Shown one piece after another: positions 26,272-58,774 of a stretch of DNA of 64,000 nt (position 1 is its first letter; each line of letters opens with the position of its first letter). Both the position numbers and the translations under genes were made by a program. This stretch comes from Hyphomicrobiales bacterium (GTDB lineage Bacteria > Pseudomonadota > Alphaproteobacteria > Rhizobiales > Rhizobiaceae): the NCBI GenBank assembly GCA_900474095.1, contig UCOA01000025.1:62001-126000 (forward strand). The letters run 5' to 3'. The notes under the pieces were generated by a model. That model saw nothing but the letters and a program-made list of their open reading frames with translations, was not told where the DNA came from and did not search any database.

Positions 26272-28107
26272 TCACCGCGTCAGCGTCGCCGTCGCGGCGT
26301 TCAACCACTCCAGCACTTTTTCGTCCGCGATCAGCGGCGACAGTTTTTCCCGCGTTTCGGCGTGATAGGCGTTGAGCCAGTCCAGTTCTTCGTCCGTCAG
26401 CAGGCCCGCGACGACGAGGCGGCGGTCGATCGGGCAGAAGGTGAGCGTTACGAAGCCGAGCATCGACAGGTCGCCGCCCTCGACCGGACTTGCTTCCAGC
26501 ACATGCACGAGATTCTCGATACGGATGCCGAAGGCGCCCGGTCGGTAATAGCCGGGCTCGTTTGAGAGGATCATGCCGGGCAGCAGTTCCTGCATCGACG
26601 CGCGGGAGATGCGCTGTGGACCTTCATGGACGGAAAGATAGGAGCCGACGCCGTGGCCGGTGCCATGGGCAAAGTCGGCGCCGGCTTTCCAGAGCGCGAT
26701 TCGCGCCAGCGGATCGAGGTCGATGCCGCGCGATCCTTTCGGGAAGCGGGCGAGGCTGATGGCGATCATGCCCTTGAGAACCAGCGTGAAGAAGCGTCGC
26801 TGCTCGTCCGGAACGGTGCCGATCGCAACGGTGCGGGTGATATCCGTGGTTCCGTTGATATATTGGCCGCCCGAATCGATCAGGAACATGGTGCCGTCGG
26901 CGATCGCCAGATCACTTTCGGTCGTGACGCGATAATGCATGATCGCTGCATGTTCGCCGGCGCCGGAAATCGTATCGAAGGAAATGTCCTTGAGCGGGTT
27001 CTGCATCCGCTCGCCGACGGCGGCGCGGATAGCTTCGAGCTTCTCGACGGCGCCGATCTCGGTGACCGTCCCAGGCTGCTTCTCATCTAGCCAGGCGAGA
27101 AACTCGACCATGGCGGCGCCGTCCTGCAGGTGGGCGCGGGCGGAGCCTTCTGTCTCGGCCGCGTTCTTGCGGGCGCGGGGCAGGCGGGCGGGATCGATCG
27201 CCTCGACAACGGTGCCGCCGCCGGCGCGGATGCGTTCGGCGAGCGCAAACGGTGCGTGCTCCGGATCGATCATGATCTTTGCGCCGGTCGCAGCGAGCGC
27301 TGCGACGTGATCGTCGAACGAGGCGGGAGCCTCGAGGCTCGAAAGCTGCGTCAGATAGGCTTCCTCCTCAATGCCGGTTTTGCGCTTGTCGAGGAACAAT
27401 TCGGCCCTGCCGTCGGCATGGACGATGGCGCGGGCGAGGGGATGCGGCGTGTGCGGTACGTCGCTGCCGCGGATGTTGAAGGTCCAGGCGATCGACGAGG
27501 GATCGGTCAGCACCACGGCATCAGCGCCTGCCTTGGAAATCTCCTGCGCCATTGTCGTGAGCTTGTCCCTCGCGAGCACGCCGGCGTGGTCGAGTGGCTG
27601 GATCTTGACGCGGCCGAGGGGTGCTGCGGGCCTGTCCGTCCATTGCCGGTCAAGCGGATTATGGTCGAGGAAGACAAGTGTGCCGCCTAGACCTTCGAGC
27701 GCCTTCTGGAGTTTGCGCACCTCGGCGCCGGTGTGCAGCCAGGGATCGATGCCGAGGCGGAAGCCCTTCTTGCCATGCCGCTCGAGCCAGAGATGCGGCG
27801 GCTCGCCGACAAGGTCACCGCCTTCGAAAACTGCGCCGTCAACCTGCTCCTTGAGCTGGGTGACGTAACGGCCGTCCACAAAGACAATCGCTTGACTGAC
27901 GGTGATGAGCGCGATGCCGGCGGACCCAGTGAAGCCAGAAAGCCACGACAGGCGCTCCGCCGAGGCAGGTACGTACTCGCCCTGGAATTCGTCGGCACGG
28001 GGAACGAGGAAGCCGTCGATGTTCAGGCCGGCGAAGGCGGCACGTAGCGCATTGACGCGGTCCTTGCCGAATTGCGGGGTCGAGGTGACTTCGAAAGACT
28101 GGAACAT
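26272..28107 (-). CDS. pepP: Xaa-Pro aminopeptidase (M24B)
   Basis: Dimetal peptidase that removes an N-terminal residue before proline. From the ATG at 28107 it has 611 aa (AGGA 8 bases upstream; product MFQSFEVTSTPQFGKDRV). Two creatinase-like N-terminal domains precede the catalytic M24 domain. The metal ligands are visible as the two Asp in LIDSGGQYINGTTDITRT, the His in FAHGTGHGVG, and the Glu in SNEPGYY and IRIENL. The large three-domain form is common in Rhizobiales and eukaryotes. Confidence 0.94.
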   Translation of the reverse strand: MFQSFEVTSTPQFGKDRVNALRAAFAGLNIDGFLVPRADEFQGEYVPASAERLSWLSGFTGSAGIALITVSQAIVFVDGRYVTQLKEQVDGAVFEGGDLVGEPPHLWLERHGKKGFRLGIDPWLHTGAEVRKLQKALEGLGGTLVFLDHNPLDRQWTDRPAAPLGRVKIQPLDHAGVLARDKLTTMAQEISKAGADAVVLTDPSSIAWTFNIRGSDVPHTPHPLARAIVHADGRAELFLDKRKTGIEEEAYLTQLSSLEAPASFDDHVAALAATGAKIMIDPEHAPFALAERIRAGGGTVVEAIDPARLPRARKNAAETEGSARAHLQDGAAMVEFLAWLDEKQPGTVTEIGAVEKLEAIRAAVGERMQNPLKDISFDTISGAGEHAAIMHYRVTTESDLAIADGTMFLIDSGGQYINGTTDITRTVAIGTVPDEQRRFFTLVLKGMIAISLARFPKGSRGIDLDPLARIALWKAGADFAHGTGHGVGSYLSVHEGPQRISRASMQELLPGMILSNEPGYYRPGAFGIRIENLVHVLEASPVEGGDLSMLGFVTLTFCPIDRRLVVAGLLTDEELDWLNAYHAETREKLSPLIADEKVLEWLNAATATLTR

Positions 28108-28344
28108 CTGATTTTCCTGCGAGGTCCAAGGTGGAGCCGGTTGGCCGGGATCGCGCCGCGACGGGCATTGTGATTCCTGAAGGGTTGTGGGCACTCTAGC
28201 TGAAACTGACGGAGCAGCGAAAGCCCGTGTTTCTTGCTCATCCGTGGACGAAGTTGAGGATGTCGTCGCGCCTCAGCCGCAGTCCTAACCGCCGCAATTG
28301 TCATACTTATGCGCCGTGCGCATGGCTCCTATGCTGCAACGCAC

Positions 28345-28372
28345 CTAGACCCGTTTCAAAAATAGTCTATAA
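28345..28372 (+). promoter_or_regulatory. Candidate sigma-70 promoter for the structured RNA
   Basis: CTAGAC (28345-28350), 16 bases, then CTATAA (28367-28372). Each hexamer differs by one base from the rhizobial housekeeping consensus CTTGAC / CTATAT. A start near 28379 is predicted on the plus strand, where no protein gene follows. Confidence 0.5.
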
Positions 28373-28378
28373 ACCCAC

Positions 28379-28627
28379 TCAACGAACACGGACGCAAATC
28401 TGCTGTTCACGCGAATGCCGAAAGGCAAGAGCTGCATGATCCGAGAATGGTTGGTCATCCTTCTCCTCCTCCCTCCGGGTGGCCGATTTTGGATCATGAA
28501 GAGTCCGCTTGAGCGCTCCTCCTCCTCAAGCTCGCGGACATGGCCGGCTTGCCGGTCAGCGGGCGGTGCTTCGGCATCGCCTTTGTTTCGAAAACCCGCT
28601 TGTCCTGACGGACAGGCGGGTTTTTCG
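28379..28627 (+). ncRNA. Candidate structured small RNA with two C-rich anti-Shine-Dalgarno loops
   Basis: No convincing protein gene lies on the plus strand here, but several hairpins do. Arms CATGATCC (28435-28442) and GGATCATG (28491-28498) enclose the CU run CTCCTCCTCCCTCC (28463-28476). GTCCGCTTGAG (28503-28513) pairs with CTCAA (28525-28529) and GCGGAC (28534-28539) around a loop containing CTCCTCCTC. GGCGGTGC/GCATCGCC (28562-28581) closes a TTCG tetraloop. A strong terminator ends the unit. CCUCC-type loops are known in rhizobial trans-acting RNAs such as the alpha-r14 family; membership here is only a suggestion. Confidence 0.5.
28591..28627. terminator. Bidirectional Rho-independent terminator between the candidate RNA and prmA
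   Basis: Eleven-base arms CCCGCTTGTCC (28595-28605) and GGACAGGCGGG (28610-28620) around TGAC, with four A before and five T after. It can stop transcripts from both sides: prmA on minus and the candidate RNA on plus. Confidence 0.9.
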
Positions 28628-28651: not shown

Positions 28652-29530
28652 TCAGGGACGGTCGAGATGGATCGTCACCCAACCGTTGCGCCAGATGGTG
28701 CGGACATGGCGCAGATGCTGGCCGTTATAGGCGGACAGCACTTTCCAGCGTTGCGACGCCAAAATACCGGACAGGATCACCGAGCCGCCGGGCGCCAGAT
28801 GACTGGCAAGCTGCGGCGCCATCTTGATCAGCGGGCGGGCAAGGATGTTGGCGATAATCAGGTCGAACGGACCATGCGCGGCAAAGGCCGGCGAGTGAAA
28901 GCCGGCGGCAGTCACTGTGCTGATGCCGCTGGCGATGCCGTTGCGCTTGACATTCTCGGCTGCCACATGCGTTGCAATCGGGTCGATGTCGGTTGCAAGA
29001 ACAGGAACCGGCTTCAGTTTGCGCGCTGCAATCGCCAGGACGCCGCTACCGGTGCCGAGATCGAGCGCATTGCGAACCTTGCGGGCGCGCATGACGGTTT
29101 CGATGACTTCGAGGCAGCCTGCCGTCGTGCCGTGGTGGCCGGTGCCGAAAGCCTGGCCGGCATCGATCTCGATGGCGATGTCGTTCACACGAACCTTGTC
29201 GCGGTCATGCGAGCCGTGGACCAGGAAACGGCCGGCGCGCACCGGCGACAGCCCCTCCAGCGACTTGGCAATCCAGTCGACCTCCGGGATGACTTCTCGC
29301 TCGATCCTCGCATCCGGAAAATGTGGCGCGACGACCGCGGCGAAGCGTGCCCGCATCTCGTCTTCCTCGTCGAAATCGATGTAGAGCGACGCCTCCCAGA
29401 TGTCCTTCTTTTCGTCCATCTCCATGGTCGCAATGGCGTAGCCGTCATCCTCGAAAACATCGGTCATCAGATCCATGATGACTTCGGACTGTTTTTCGGT
29501 GGTGGTGATGAACAGGCGAAGGTCACTCAA
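28652..29530 (-). CDS. prmA: Ribosomal protein L11 methyltransferase PrmA
   Basis: SAM-dependent enzyme that methylates lysines and the N-terminus of L11. It has 292 aa with an N-terminal substrate-recognition region, then the Rossmann methyltransferase fold with DAGQAFGTGHHGTT, motif I LDLGTGSGVLAIAARK and the ANILARPL catalytic-loop motif. The gene ends about 25 bases before the bidirectional terminator. Confidence 0.93.
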   Translation of the reverse strand: MSDLRLFITTTEKQSEVIMDLMTDVFEDDGYAIATMEMDEKKDIWEASLYIDFDEEDEMRARFAAVVAPHFPDARIEREVIPEVDWIAKSLEGLSPVRAGRFLVHGSHDRDKVRVNDIAIEIDAGQAFGTGHHGTTAGCLEVIETVMRARKVRNALDLGTGSGVLAIAARKLKPVPVLATDIDPIATHVAAENVKRNGIASGISTVTAAGFHSPAFAAHGPFDLIIANILARPLIKMAPQLASHLAPGGSVILSGILASQRWKVLSAYNGQHLRHVRTIWRNGWVTIHLDRP

Positions 29531-58062: not shown

Positions 58063-58410
58063 GGAGAAGGTGAAGGCTTCTGTTGCCAGGTGCCTTCGGA
58101 CCCCGCCTAAGAGTGCGACCCCTTAGGACTTGATTTGAAGTGTCACACCGCGATTAAGCAGCGAGACGAGCTTCCGCATAGTTGTCGTTTGCAACTACAA
58201 TTTTAGCCCGATAACGGTGGTACAATGCCGAGCGAAAAGTCGATCTTTACACCCTTGTCGATCCTATTTCGCCCCCATCAAAAGCCGGTCGGCTATTCTT
58301 GACCTGTAAGTCATTGCCGACCGGTTTTTGGTGGAGGCGCCGGGTACCGCCCCCGGGTCCAATAGGTTTATTTCACCGCCTGTTTATCGCCATAGCCGCC
58401 CGAAGACGGC
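58063..58410 (-). ncRNA. ssrA: Circularly permuted two-piece tmRNA
   Basis: Read on minus. The acceptor piece runs from about 58410 to the encoded CCA end (58329-58331). It is followed by an intervening hairpin spacer (arms CCGGTCGGC / GCCGACCGG) and the coding piece from 58276 (GGGGGCG, which pairs with the CGCCTCC before the CCA). The tag reading frame is at 58157-58192, ANDNYAEARLAA, with stop TAA at 58154-58156. Ends are estimated from geometry: about 82 nt for the acceptor piece and about 214 nt for the coding piece. This permuted form is the alphaproteobacterial one. The RNA rescues stalled ribosomes with SmpB, which is not encoded in this window. Confidence 0.93.
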
Positions 58411-58417
58411 AATTAAC

Positions 58418-58423
58418 ATATAG
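58418..58423 (-). promoter_or_regulatory. Probable -10 element of ssrA
   Basis: On minus the hexamer CTATAT (58418-58423) matches the rhizobial -10 consensus and sits about 8 bases before the expected acceptor-piece 5' end near 58410. The -35 is not clear. Confidence 0.5.
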
Positions 58424-58774
58424 GTCTTAAATAGTTCCAAGAAAAGGGGGCTTCCGGAAAATACAGTGTATGCTTGTTGCCAGCCGCGCGCCGGATTGGC
58501 CTTGACCGGTTCGCCAAGCGAGAAAAAATCCTGTTGCGTGCGTTCGCCCAGGGAAGGATCGGATTGCCCAATGAGGACTCCTTGCCAGGACCATGGCGGC
58601 GACCGGTCGAAGTGTGACGTTCAATTATCTGGTGGCAAAACAACTCGATCGCGTCTCGCAACACTCTGATCGGGAGTGCCGGTCACGACGGCCCTGGGGA
58701 AACCCGGCATTTACCGATTGGTTCGCCGCTGACTTGCGCCTATTTTACCCGTAAAACGAATCGGCGGCGGATCC
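58424..58774. other. Intergenic region between ssrA and thyA
   Basis: About 350 bp separating divergent transcripts. Short frames on both strands lack ribosome sites and homology. It must contain the thyA promoter; no further feature could be supported. Confidence 0.5.

Follow-up and report, generated by a model that had tools for sequence, protein, structure and literature searches.

What kind of gene, if any, occupies the gap between pepP and prmA in a member of the Rhizobiaceae, and where did it come from? We asked this of a window of 64,000 nucleotides, by which we mean the whole stretch of DNA that was analysed, and of the corresponding loci in related genomes. The gap holds a conserved, single-copy, strongly structured RNA gene. 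To judge from comparison of homologues and from predicted folds, it looks like a non-coding small RNA (sRNA) of the trans-acting type that exposes two anti-Shine-Dalgarno (anti-SD) loops. The reading that we prefer, and to which we assign a probability of roughly 0.7, is that of a stand-alone trans-acting anti-SD sRNA that derives from a bicistron of the cuckoo/CIN1 type and is perhaps controlled by LsrB.

Read along the plus strand, the gap contains a promoter, a pair of hairpins whose loops are CU-rich, then one more hairpin, a hairpin with a UUCG loop followed by UUUGUUU, and a second terminator (Table 1). The preliminary description had named the promoter, the two hairpins with loops of the CUCCUCC type and the UUCG hairpin, and each of these stands, with the boundaries of loops and UUCG hairpin recounted. 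It had also named one terminator. That terminator is present as terminator 2, and it has to share the role with the UUCG hairpin, which together with its UUUGUUU tail is the more widely conserved terminator of the two. For this reason the main transcript is probably ~210 nt long, with a form of ~249 nt arising by read-through. Terminator 2 is probably shared with the convergent prmA. When positions 28379-28627 were folded, the free energy was -116.8 kcal/mol, compared with -88.4 +/- 5.0 kcal/mol for 200 shuffled sequences (z = -5.6), none of which folded as well. The RNA of the window has two CU loops in total; the motif CCUCCUCCC occurs in loop 1 alone, and the terminator loop reads UUCG.

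Table 1. Features in and around the pepP-prmA gap, in coordinates of the window.
Feature	Position	Strand	Basis and remarks
pepP	26272-28107	-	ORF (start is a chosen ATG) and translated search across loci; divergent neighbour on the promoter side
LysR-type operator-like element	28309-28333	+	Dyad ATGCGCCGTGCGCAT (28309-28323) overlaps box GCATGGCTCCTATG (28320-28333); box at ~-59 to -46 from the predicted start
Promoter	28345-28372	+	-35 CTAGAC (28345-28350), N16, -10 CTATAA (28367-28372); the -10 keeps a fixed spacing to the box
sRNA, probable main form, ~210 nt	28379-28588	+	Predicted start to terminator 1; fold, conservation, S. meliloti lengths
sRNA, probable read-through form, ~249 nt	28379-28627	+	Predicted start to terminator 2; S. 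meliloti lengths
Two weaker hairpins	28384-28408, 28411-28432	+	Single-sequence fold
Hairpin 1	28435-28498	+	Loop 28461-28476, UUCUCCUCCUCCCUCC, contains CCUCCUCCC; fold and covariation
Hairpin 2	28503-28539	+	Loop 28515-28529, GCUCCUCCUCCUCAA; stem GUCCGC/GCGGAC plus invariant GAGC/GCUC; fold and covariation
Hairpin 3	28541-28558	+	Without CU loop; two-sided changes in 4 of 6 consensus pairs
Terminator 1	28561-28588	+	Hairpin 28561-28582, UUCG loop, then UUUGUUU; two-sided changes in 5 of 10 consensus pairs
Terminator 2	28590-28626		Hairpin 28590-28625, near-symmetric; homologues also match the reverse strand
prmA	28652-29530	-	ORF and translated search across loci; convergent neighbour

How widely is this element conserved? 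A search with nhmmer found it in 109 of 110 loci (92 distinct sequences among the 109), a sample that contains many duplicates and 30 loci selected by likeness to the RNA itself. Among the loci selected by PrmA alone, which were the best 80 of 305 and close relatives, 79 carry the element; in the other, L091, it was not found although the DNA behind prmA is present. Counted by genome, the element is present in all 26 genomes searched from the window's genus, its own included, and in 29 of 61 genomes searched overall. We infer this genus to be Pararhizobium. With the covariance model R1, the genome of the window yields a single copy. Under strict filters, which lose weak matches, R1 reaches at least 72 of 297 genomes and 28 of 109 genera in the family, some of them by weak matches. 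At the level of the order, equally under strict filters, it reaches at least 8 of 297 genomes, of which 5 belong to the family and 3 match weakly (E > 1e-4).

The preliminary description had looked to compensatory changes in the stems and to retention of the CU loops in relatives, and both are found. A MAFFT alignment of 89 distinct RNA cores (L029, which has no terminator match, was left out) contains two-sided changes in 18 of 32 pairs, compared with a mean of 10.2 and no value as high as 18 in 500 shuffles, which do not keep relatedness. Paired cells amount to 98.7% of this alignment, against 93.6% after shuffling and 32-43% in the slid control, which is biased towards the consensus since the consensus was drawn from the same alignment. 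Folded one at a time, all 89 distinct sequences have minimum free energy structures with exactly two CU-bearing hairpin loops. The mean unpaired probability is 0.94 for the first CU run (89 sequences) and 0.97 for the second (the 85 sequences where it was found). CUCCUCC is present in 88 of 89 distinct homologues in the region of hairpin 1 and likewise in 88 of 89 in that of hairpin 2, and the exact CCUCCUCCC motif in 76 and 6 of the 89, respectively. Stems vary and loops are kept, with the exception of 6 of the 10 consensus pairs of hairpin 2, including GAGC/GCUC, which are invariant.

Is the transcript new? The preliminary description had allowed for a new family. The locus itself is not new: it very probably corresponds to S. 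meliloti Sm26/SmelC531, a transcript that has been reported before. Over 89% of a query of 301 bases, the S. meliloti match is 75% identical in DNA sequence. In strain Ak57 (CP090106.1) the homologue adjoins an aminopeptidase P gene; the tmRNA gene is ~28 kb away and on the other strand. The predicted Ak57 transcript measures 199 nt if it ends at terminator 1 and 241 nt if it ends at terminator 2. In the accessible parts of two papers on strain 1021, Sm26/SmelC531 is placed at 2321050-2321287 on the minus strand, between SMc04453 and SMc01885, with the tmRNA fragment SmelC525 (plus strand) at a distance of ~30 kb; Sm26 gave a Northern doublet of ~200 and ~135 nt, and the sequencing contig of SmelC531 measures 238 nt (PMC2573895, PMC2873474). 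The Ak57 lengths come close to the published ~200 and 238 nt, and the ~135-nt Sm26 band is unexplained. The distance to the tmRNA gene differs by ~2 kb between the two strains. From gene order and locus numbering, SMc01885 is presumably pepP.

The 2008 paper predicts ~390 nt for Sm26 and has alignments with R. etli and R. leguminosarum in its supplements, and the 2010 paper places SmelC531 in a class of the cis-antisense type (type 2) (PMC2573895, PMC2873474). The accessible text of these two papers states no function for Sm26/SmelC531, nor does that of the cited literature assign the RNA to a kind or family. Microarray signals have been reported under acidic, cold, oxidative and saline stress with a probe at 2321429-2321478; this probe lies upstream of SmelC531, and another transcript may be the source of its signal. 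Other published RNAs were considered and rejected. As the S. meliloti counterpart, SmelC549, SmelC500 and SmelC507 are unfit by position or strand. EcpR1 and GspR have other published neighbours, and the published description confines PmaR to Agrobacterium and a single strain of Rhizobium.

Several of the records have features of their own. The Ak57 record (L112) is labelled pSymB, yet at 3.7 Mb and with ftsZ, ftsA, lpxC and tmRNA it looks chromosomal; three extra small genes, one for a Phd/YefM antitoxin, lie there between the sRNA and prmA. The window itself has an alphaproteobacterial tmRNA gene at 58069-58449 on the minus strand, ~30 kb from the sRNA. The record of R. leguminosarum pSK03 (L227, NZ_CP022567.1, 408 kb), which is named as a plasmid, begins with part of the RNA, followed by prmA, SCO, cheW and creA, and this start is either a housekeeping segment on the replicon or an assembly fragment.

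What drives expression of the RNA? A generic sigma-70 scan (TTGACA/TATAAT) reported no promoter in the pepP-prmA gap; the alphaproteobacterial promoter form is given as CTTGAC-N17-CTATAT in the accessible part of PMC8844928. The box upstream, in the form GCATRGCWCCYATG, occurs in every one of the 89 distinct loci (without mismatch in 74, with one mismatch in 5 and with two in 10), the pattern having been derived from the same 89 loci that were scored, and the reversed pattern matches 2 of the 89, at 3 mismatches. Between the box and a loosely defined -10, whose pattern tolerates one mismatch, the gap is 33 nt in 63 loci, 34 nt in 22 and 42 nt in 4. A TGC-N7-GCA dyad of the LysR type (T-N11-A) is found in 84 of the 89. 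Across the 27 loci displayed, this promoter module stands before ORF-bearing and ORF-less forms of the locus alike; L072, L088 and L103 are exceptions, with a module that is weak or was not detected. The window's own assembly has a single exact copy of the box, at the sRNA locus. One-mismatch matches elsewhere in that genome number 19 (20 with the exact copy), compared with 11 for the control, and do not define a regulon.

The published consensus for LsrB is GCAT-N3-TG-N3-T, and LsrB drives S. meliloti abcR1 from a site at -61 to -49 (PMC8844928, accessible part). The box in the window is at the right position for LsrB but has TC in place of the consensus TG, and the DNA upstream of the RNA holds no exact match to the consensus, which occurs 14 times in the 64-kb window. 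Because of this TC, we advance LsrB control of the promoter tentatively, at somewhat less than even odds. A palindrome, GCATGGCAGCCATGC, was also seen on G000 contig 234 (L148, ~31826), ~140 bases before an ATG frame that is peroxiredoxin-like by eye.

The preliminary description had stated that no protein gene follows the RNA, which is correct, and the statement needs an amendment on the other side: many relatives have a small ORF in front of it. This ORF lies just upstream of the RNA in 58 of 109 loci (56 distinct sequences) and measures 46-58 codons in the examples aligned. The 38 distinct full-length ORFs end in AF, VF or IF before the stop, and this end overlaps hairpin 1, with the stop codon in its 5' arm in folds such as that of L053. 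Median dN/dS is 0.35 (660 of 703 pairs of the 38 full-length ORFs, with dS 0.1-2) and third positions are the most variable; by these substitution patterns, the small ORF is under protein-level constraint. At the window locus there is no such ORF, and a profile search of the window's own genome found no clear homologue. The set-rule scripts also class as ORF-less, among others, the rest of the window's genus, Sinorhizobium, the Mycoplana group, L099, L189/L190, L197, L199 and L202.

What might the small ORF encode? No Pfam or NCBIfam family, DUF1127 included, matched it above cut-off; the seven entries of one such search included a piece of unprocessed locus DNA in place of a clean ORF. When the ORF profile was compared with four hand-picked DUF1127 proteins of the window's own genome, the probability was 85.5% (E 5.7e-6, a single comparison); with an earlier set it was 65%. 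Within the genome of the window, the highest-ranking hit of the ORF profile (E 0.0076) coincides in part with a DUF1127 match. On such profile likeness, we regard the ORF as distantly DUF1127-like. Two loci, L193 and L207, have a different small ORF (start MTS[PQ]IRT, by eye) between a box of the same kind and a shortened RNA. In L027, the small ORF stops early in frame and the stem of hairpin 1 behind it is kept, a possible intermediate of ORF loss.

Could the CU loops serve mainly as a protein-binding platform that titrates an RNA-binding protein, such as a CcaF1-type DUF1127 protein encoded elsewhere? CcaF1, a DUF1127 protein co-transcribed with CcsR, has a reported role in CcsR maturation and RNA turnover in Rhodobacter (PMC10253847, accessible part). 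The genome of the window has 6 DUF1127 matches over the Pfam cut-off, and GAGC/GCUC of hairpin 2 is invariant among the 89 cores, as a protein site might be. However, the loops are anti-SD-like in 88 of 89 while the stems vary, and the three anti-SD motifs of NfeR1 are reported to regulate their targets redundantly and by base pairing (PMC7143759, PMC10746234, accessible parts). We consider a protein platform unlikely.

Does the RNA belong to a known family? At the gathering level, Rfam has no match at the sRNA locus. The preliminary description had suggested a relative of alpha-r14, and this is borne out in part: the anti-SD loops are kept in relatives, and two of the distant loci, L189 and L190, pass the cut-off of Rfam ar14 (RF02344), but the window RNA itself scores 16 bits, below the gathering score of 58.8, and by the model is not a member. 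Sub-threshold rows, among them weak matches to RNAI, P37, Bp2_287 and sX5, were set aside; these four rest largely on terminator hairpins. Alpha-r14 RNAs are described as having three hairpins, each with CCUCCUCCC in its loop (PMC10746234, accessible part). The UUCG loop of terminator 1 stands where ar14-like relatives have their third CCUCCUCCC loop.

Distant loci suggest where the window RNA may have originated. We hand-chose 20 places from the 72 family genomes with an R1 match, and five loci (L188, L189, L190, L198 and L206) have prmA nearby and three copies of CCUCCUCCC, the third in the terminator loop. Their ar14 scores are 60.0 bits for L189, 59.0 for L190, 52.8 for L188, 49.9 for L206 and 39.3 for L198. 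None of the seven other loci of the same search, and none of 13 further loci, exceeds the cut-off, the best score among the 13 being 29.0 (L197). L189 is also the only locus reached by the CcsR1 model (29.5 of 65.3 bits), and neither L189 nor L190 has a pepP match beside the locus. L198 combines a hairpin 2 of the window type, CCCGCUUGAGC, with the three-loop plan, and by carrying both features it links the two types. Near another locus (L195:1940-2008, minus strand) there is a sub-threshold match to the Brucella sRNA CI27 (29.2 of 59.8 bits).

These likenesses extend to the promoters. Of the 5 ar14 copies in the window's own genome, 3 have a similar box whose distance to a loosely defined -10 is 33-34 nt, and two of these fit the LsrB consensus. 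Likeness was judged here by the box pattern; for alpha-r14, a conserved promoter element of 29 nt upstream of the -35 has been published. By these patterns the box was not found at the ar14 copies L125 and L127, nor at the ar15 copy L229. The genome also has two ar15 (AbcR-type) copies, one of which carries ACATGGCTGTCATG at -61, a site one base off the LsrB consensus. The box at three own ar14 copies and the scores of L189 and L190 are what one would expect if the RNA were merely a diverged alpha-r14 (NfeR1-type) RNA, unrelated to the upstream small ORFs. We hold this to be quite improbable, as the window RNA reaches 16 of 58.8 bits, is single-copy and has hairpin 3 and a UUCG terminator loop, and as the ORF shares the promoter of the RNA and, when full-length, ends inside hairpin 1. 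A tandem ar14 pair over the cut-off was also observed in the window's own genome at G000 contig 100:11350-12917 (L153). Two DUF1127 genes follow the pair closely in the same orientation, a CIN1-like arrangement; three of the one-mismatch box sites lie in this cluster within 705 bases, two of them on the strand opposite to its genes.

Did the RNA lose an ORF, or did relatives gain one? The first prmA tree has 88 rows, 58 of them with the ORF (L009, whose prmA matched in pieces, was left out, and L029 has no prmA row). On this tree 4 changes are required for the ORF (bootstrap 3-4). Well-supported branches force every one of them, but 3 of the 4 involve rows flagged for long branches (L027, L028, L031 and L099). 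A wider tree has 45 rows, namely 30 of the earlier ones and the 15 of the 20 newly fetched loci that have prmA; here the ORF needs 6 changes (bootstrap 6-7), of which well-supported branches force 2. The trees alone give no direction. Losses seem more probable than gains, given that the ORFs resemble one another from clade to clade and occupy the same slot, and the absence of the ORF from Pararhizobium, Sinorhizobium and Mycoplana probably reflects more than one loss.

We lean, by a little, towards a broader form of this reading. An mRNA for a DUF1127-like ORF, with an anti-SD RNA as its 3' UTR, would have become a pure regulatory RNA repeatedly within the Rhizobiaceae. In this process the LysR-type promoter and the hairpins would persist and the ORF would disappear, except that its last codons would survive as the 5' arm of hairpin 1. 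The odds that we give to such repeated conversion of an mRNA into an sRNA are weakened by the long-branch flags on the prmA tree. If it is true, the locus would preserve in nature the successive stages by which an mRNA gives rise to a stand-alone sRNA.

Could the element instead do no more than end transcripts? The locus might hold convergent prmA terminators and a spurious transcript without any function in trans, and terminator 2 is indeed near-symmetric and faces prmA. Such a view is very hard to sustain, because the promoter box, the two CU hairpins and hairpin 3 are conserved, the stems covary, and Northern signals have been published for the S. meliloti homologue. That the RNA encodes a small peptide is barely credible, since the 9-codon ATG frame (MPKGKSCMV-like) seen in many loci of the window's genus is absent or different in L003, L006, L020, L022-L026 and L031 and in the window runs on through the RNA.

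How would a stand-alone anti-SD sRNA work? We envisage that the box at ~-60 would be bound by an activator of the LysR type, possibly LsrB/VtlR, which would switch on a weak sigma-70 promoter. Transcription would then stop at terminator 1 or read through to terminator 2, as fits the lengths published for S. meliloti. The hairpins of the RNA are predicted, from covariation and single-sequence folding, to hold the two CU-rich loops open. These loops may pair with Shine-Dalgarno sequences of the GGAGG type in several mRNAs and so block ribosome entry and promote decay, as reported for NfeR1. As for descent, the RNA would come from a locus of the cuckoo/CIN1 type: in many relatives a promoter of the same kind appears to drive the DUF1127-like ORF, with the RNA as its 3' UTR, and in Pararhizobium and several other lineages the ORF is missing while promoter and RNA appear to have been kept.

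The model draws on conservation, structure, loop exposure in predicted folds and the promoter module; transcription in this species, the regulator, the pairing and the targets are its inferred steps. Perfect Shine-Dalgarno complements before an ATG were found at 7 sites (reversed control 0), and a second search gave 9 sites (control 5). Of these 16 rows, two show the complement of the RNA itself and one is a double count. Among the 13 remaining sites, 8 have open frames of at least 100 codons (L211, L214, L215, L217 and L219-L222) and 5 have frames of 35 codons at most. By eye, L219 resembles a sugar ABC transporter ATPase and L221 an alcohol dehydrogenase; we claim no target.

Why does this locus matter? 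Sm26/SmelC531, published and, as far as the accessible literature goes, apparently unexplained, can now be given a likely family, together with a candidate regulator and a mechanism open to test. Set against that literature, what appears to be new is the ORF-less, two-loop, UUCG-terminated form and its link to the ar14 and cuckoo RNAs. Forms with ORF and RNA, with a damaged ORF and with RNA only stand at one syntenic place behind a promoter of the same kind. This series poses two questions: is it the small protein or the RNA that is selected, and how do sRNAs in 3' UTRs become independent genes?

Where does the RNA stand among known systems? With Sm26/SmelC531 it shares the intergenic region, the strand and the predicted transcript length, the comparison being made through Ak57. 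It resembles alpha-r14/NfeR1 in its CU-rich anti-SD loops and through the two distant loci at prmA that pass the ar14 cut-off; it differs in having two anti-SD loops instead of three, an extra hairpin 3, a UUCG terminator loop and one copy. AbcR1/AbcR2 (alpha-r15) have anti-SD motifs too, with a box of the LsrB type at ~-60, and they are separate tandem loci in the same genome. Cuckoo/CIN1 loci contain two to four adjacent hairpins with CCUCCUCCC loops (compare PMC3927594, accessible part). In Rhodobacter the DUF1127 gene ccaF1 is reported to be transcribed together with the CcsR RNAs, associations of this sort being termed CIN1 loci (PMC10253847, accessible part). The relatives of the window RNA share with cuckoo/CIN1 and CcsR1-4/ccaF1 (RF02791) the CCUCCUCCC-type loops behind a DUF1127-type ORF and the single promoter; in contrast, the window form has no ORF, and the ORF of the relatives appears to be only distant kin of DUF1127. 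Krieger et al. 2022 report an sRNA that evolved from a peroxidase mRNA. Such an sRNA, OxyS, would have kept the regulated promoter and the 3' part of the mRNA. That case concerns different bacteria and a different regulator, whereas here ORF-bearing and ORF-less forms coexist in one family.
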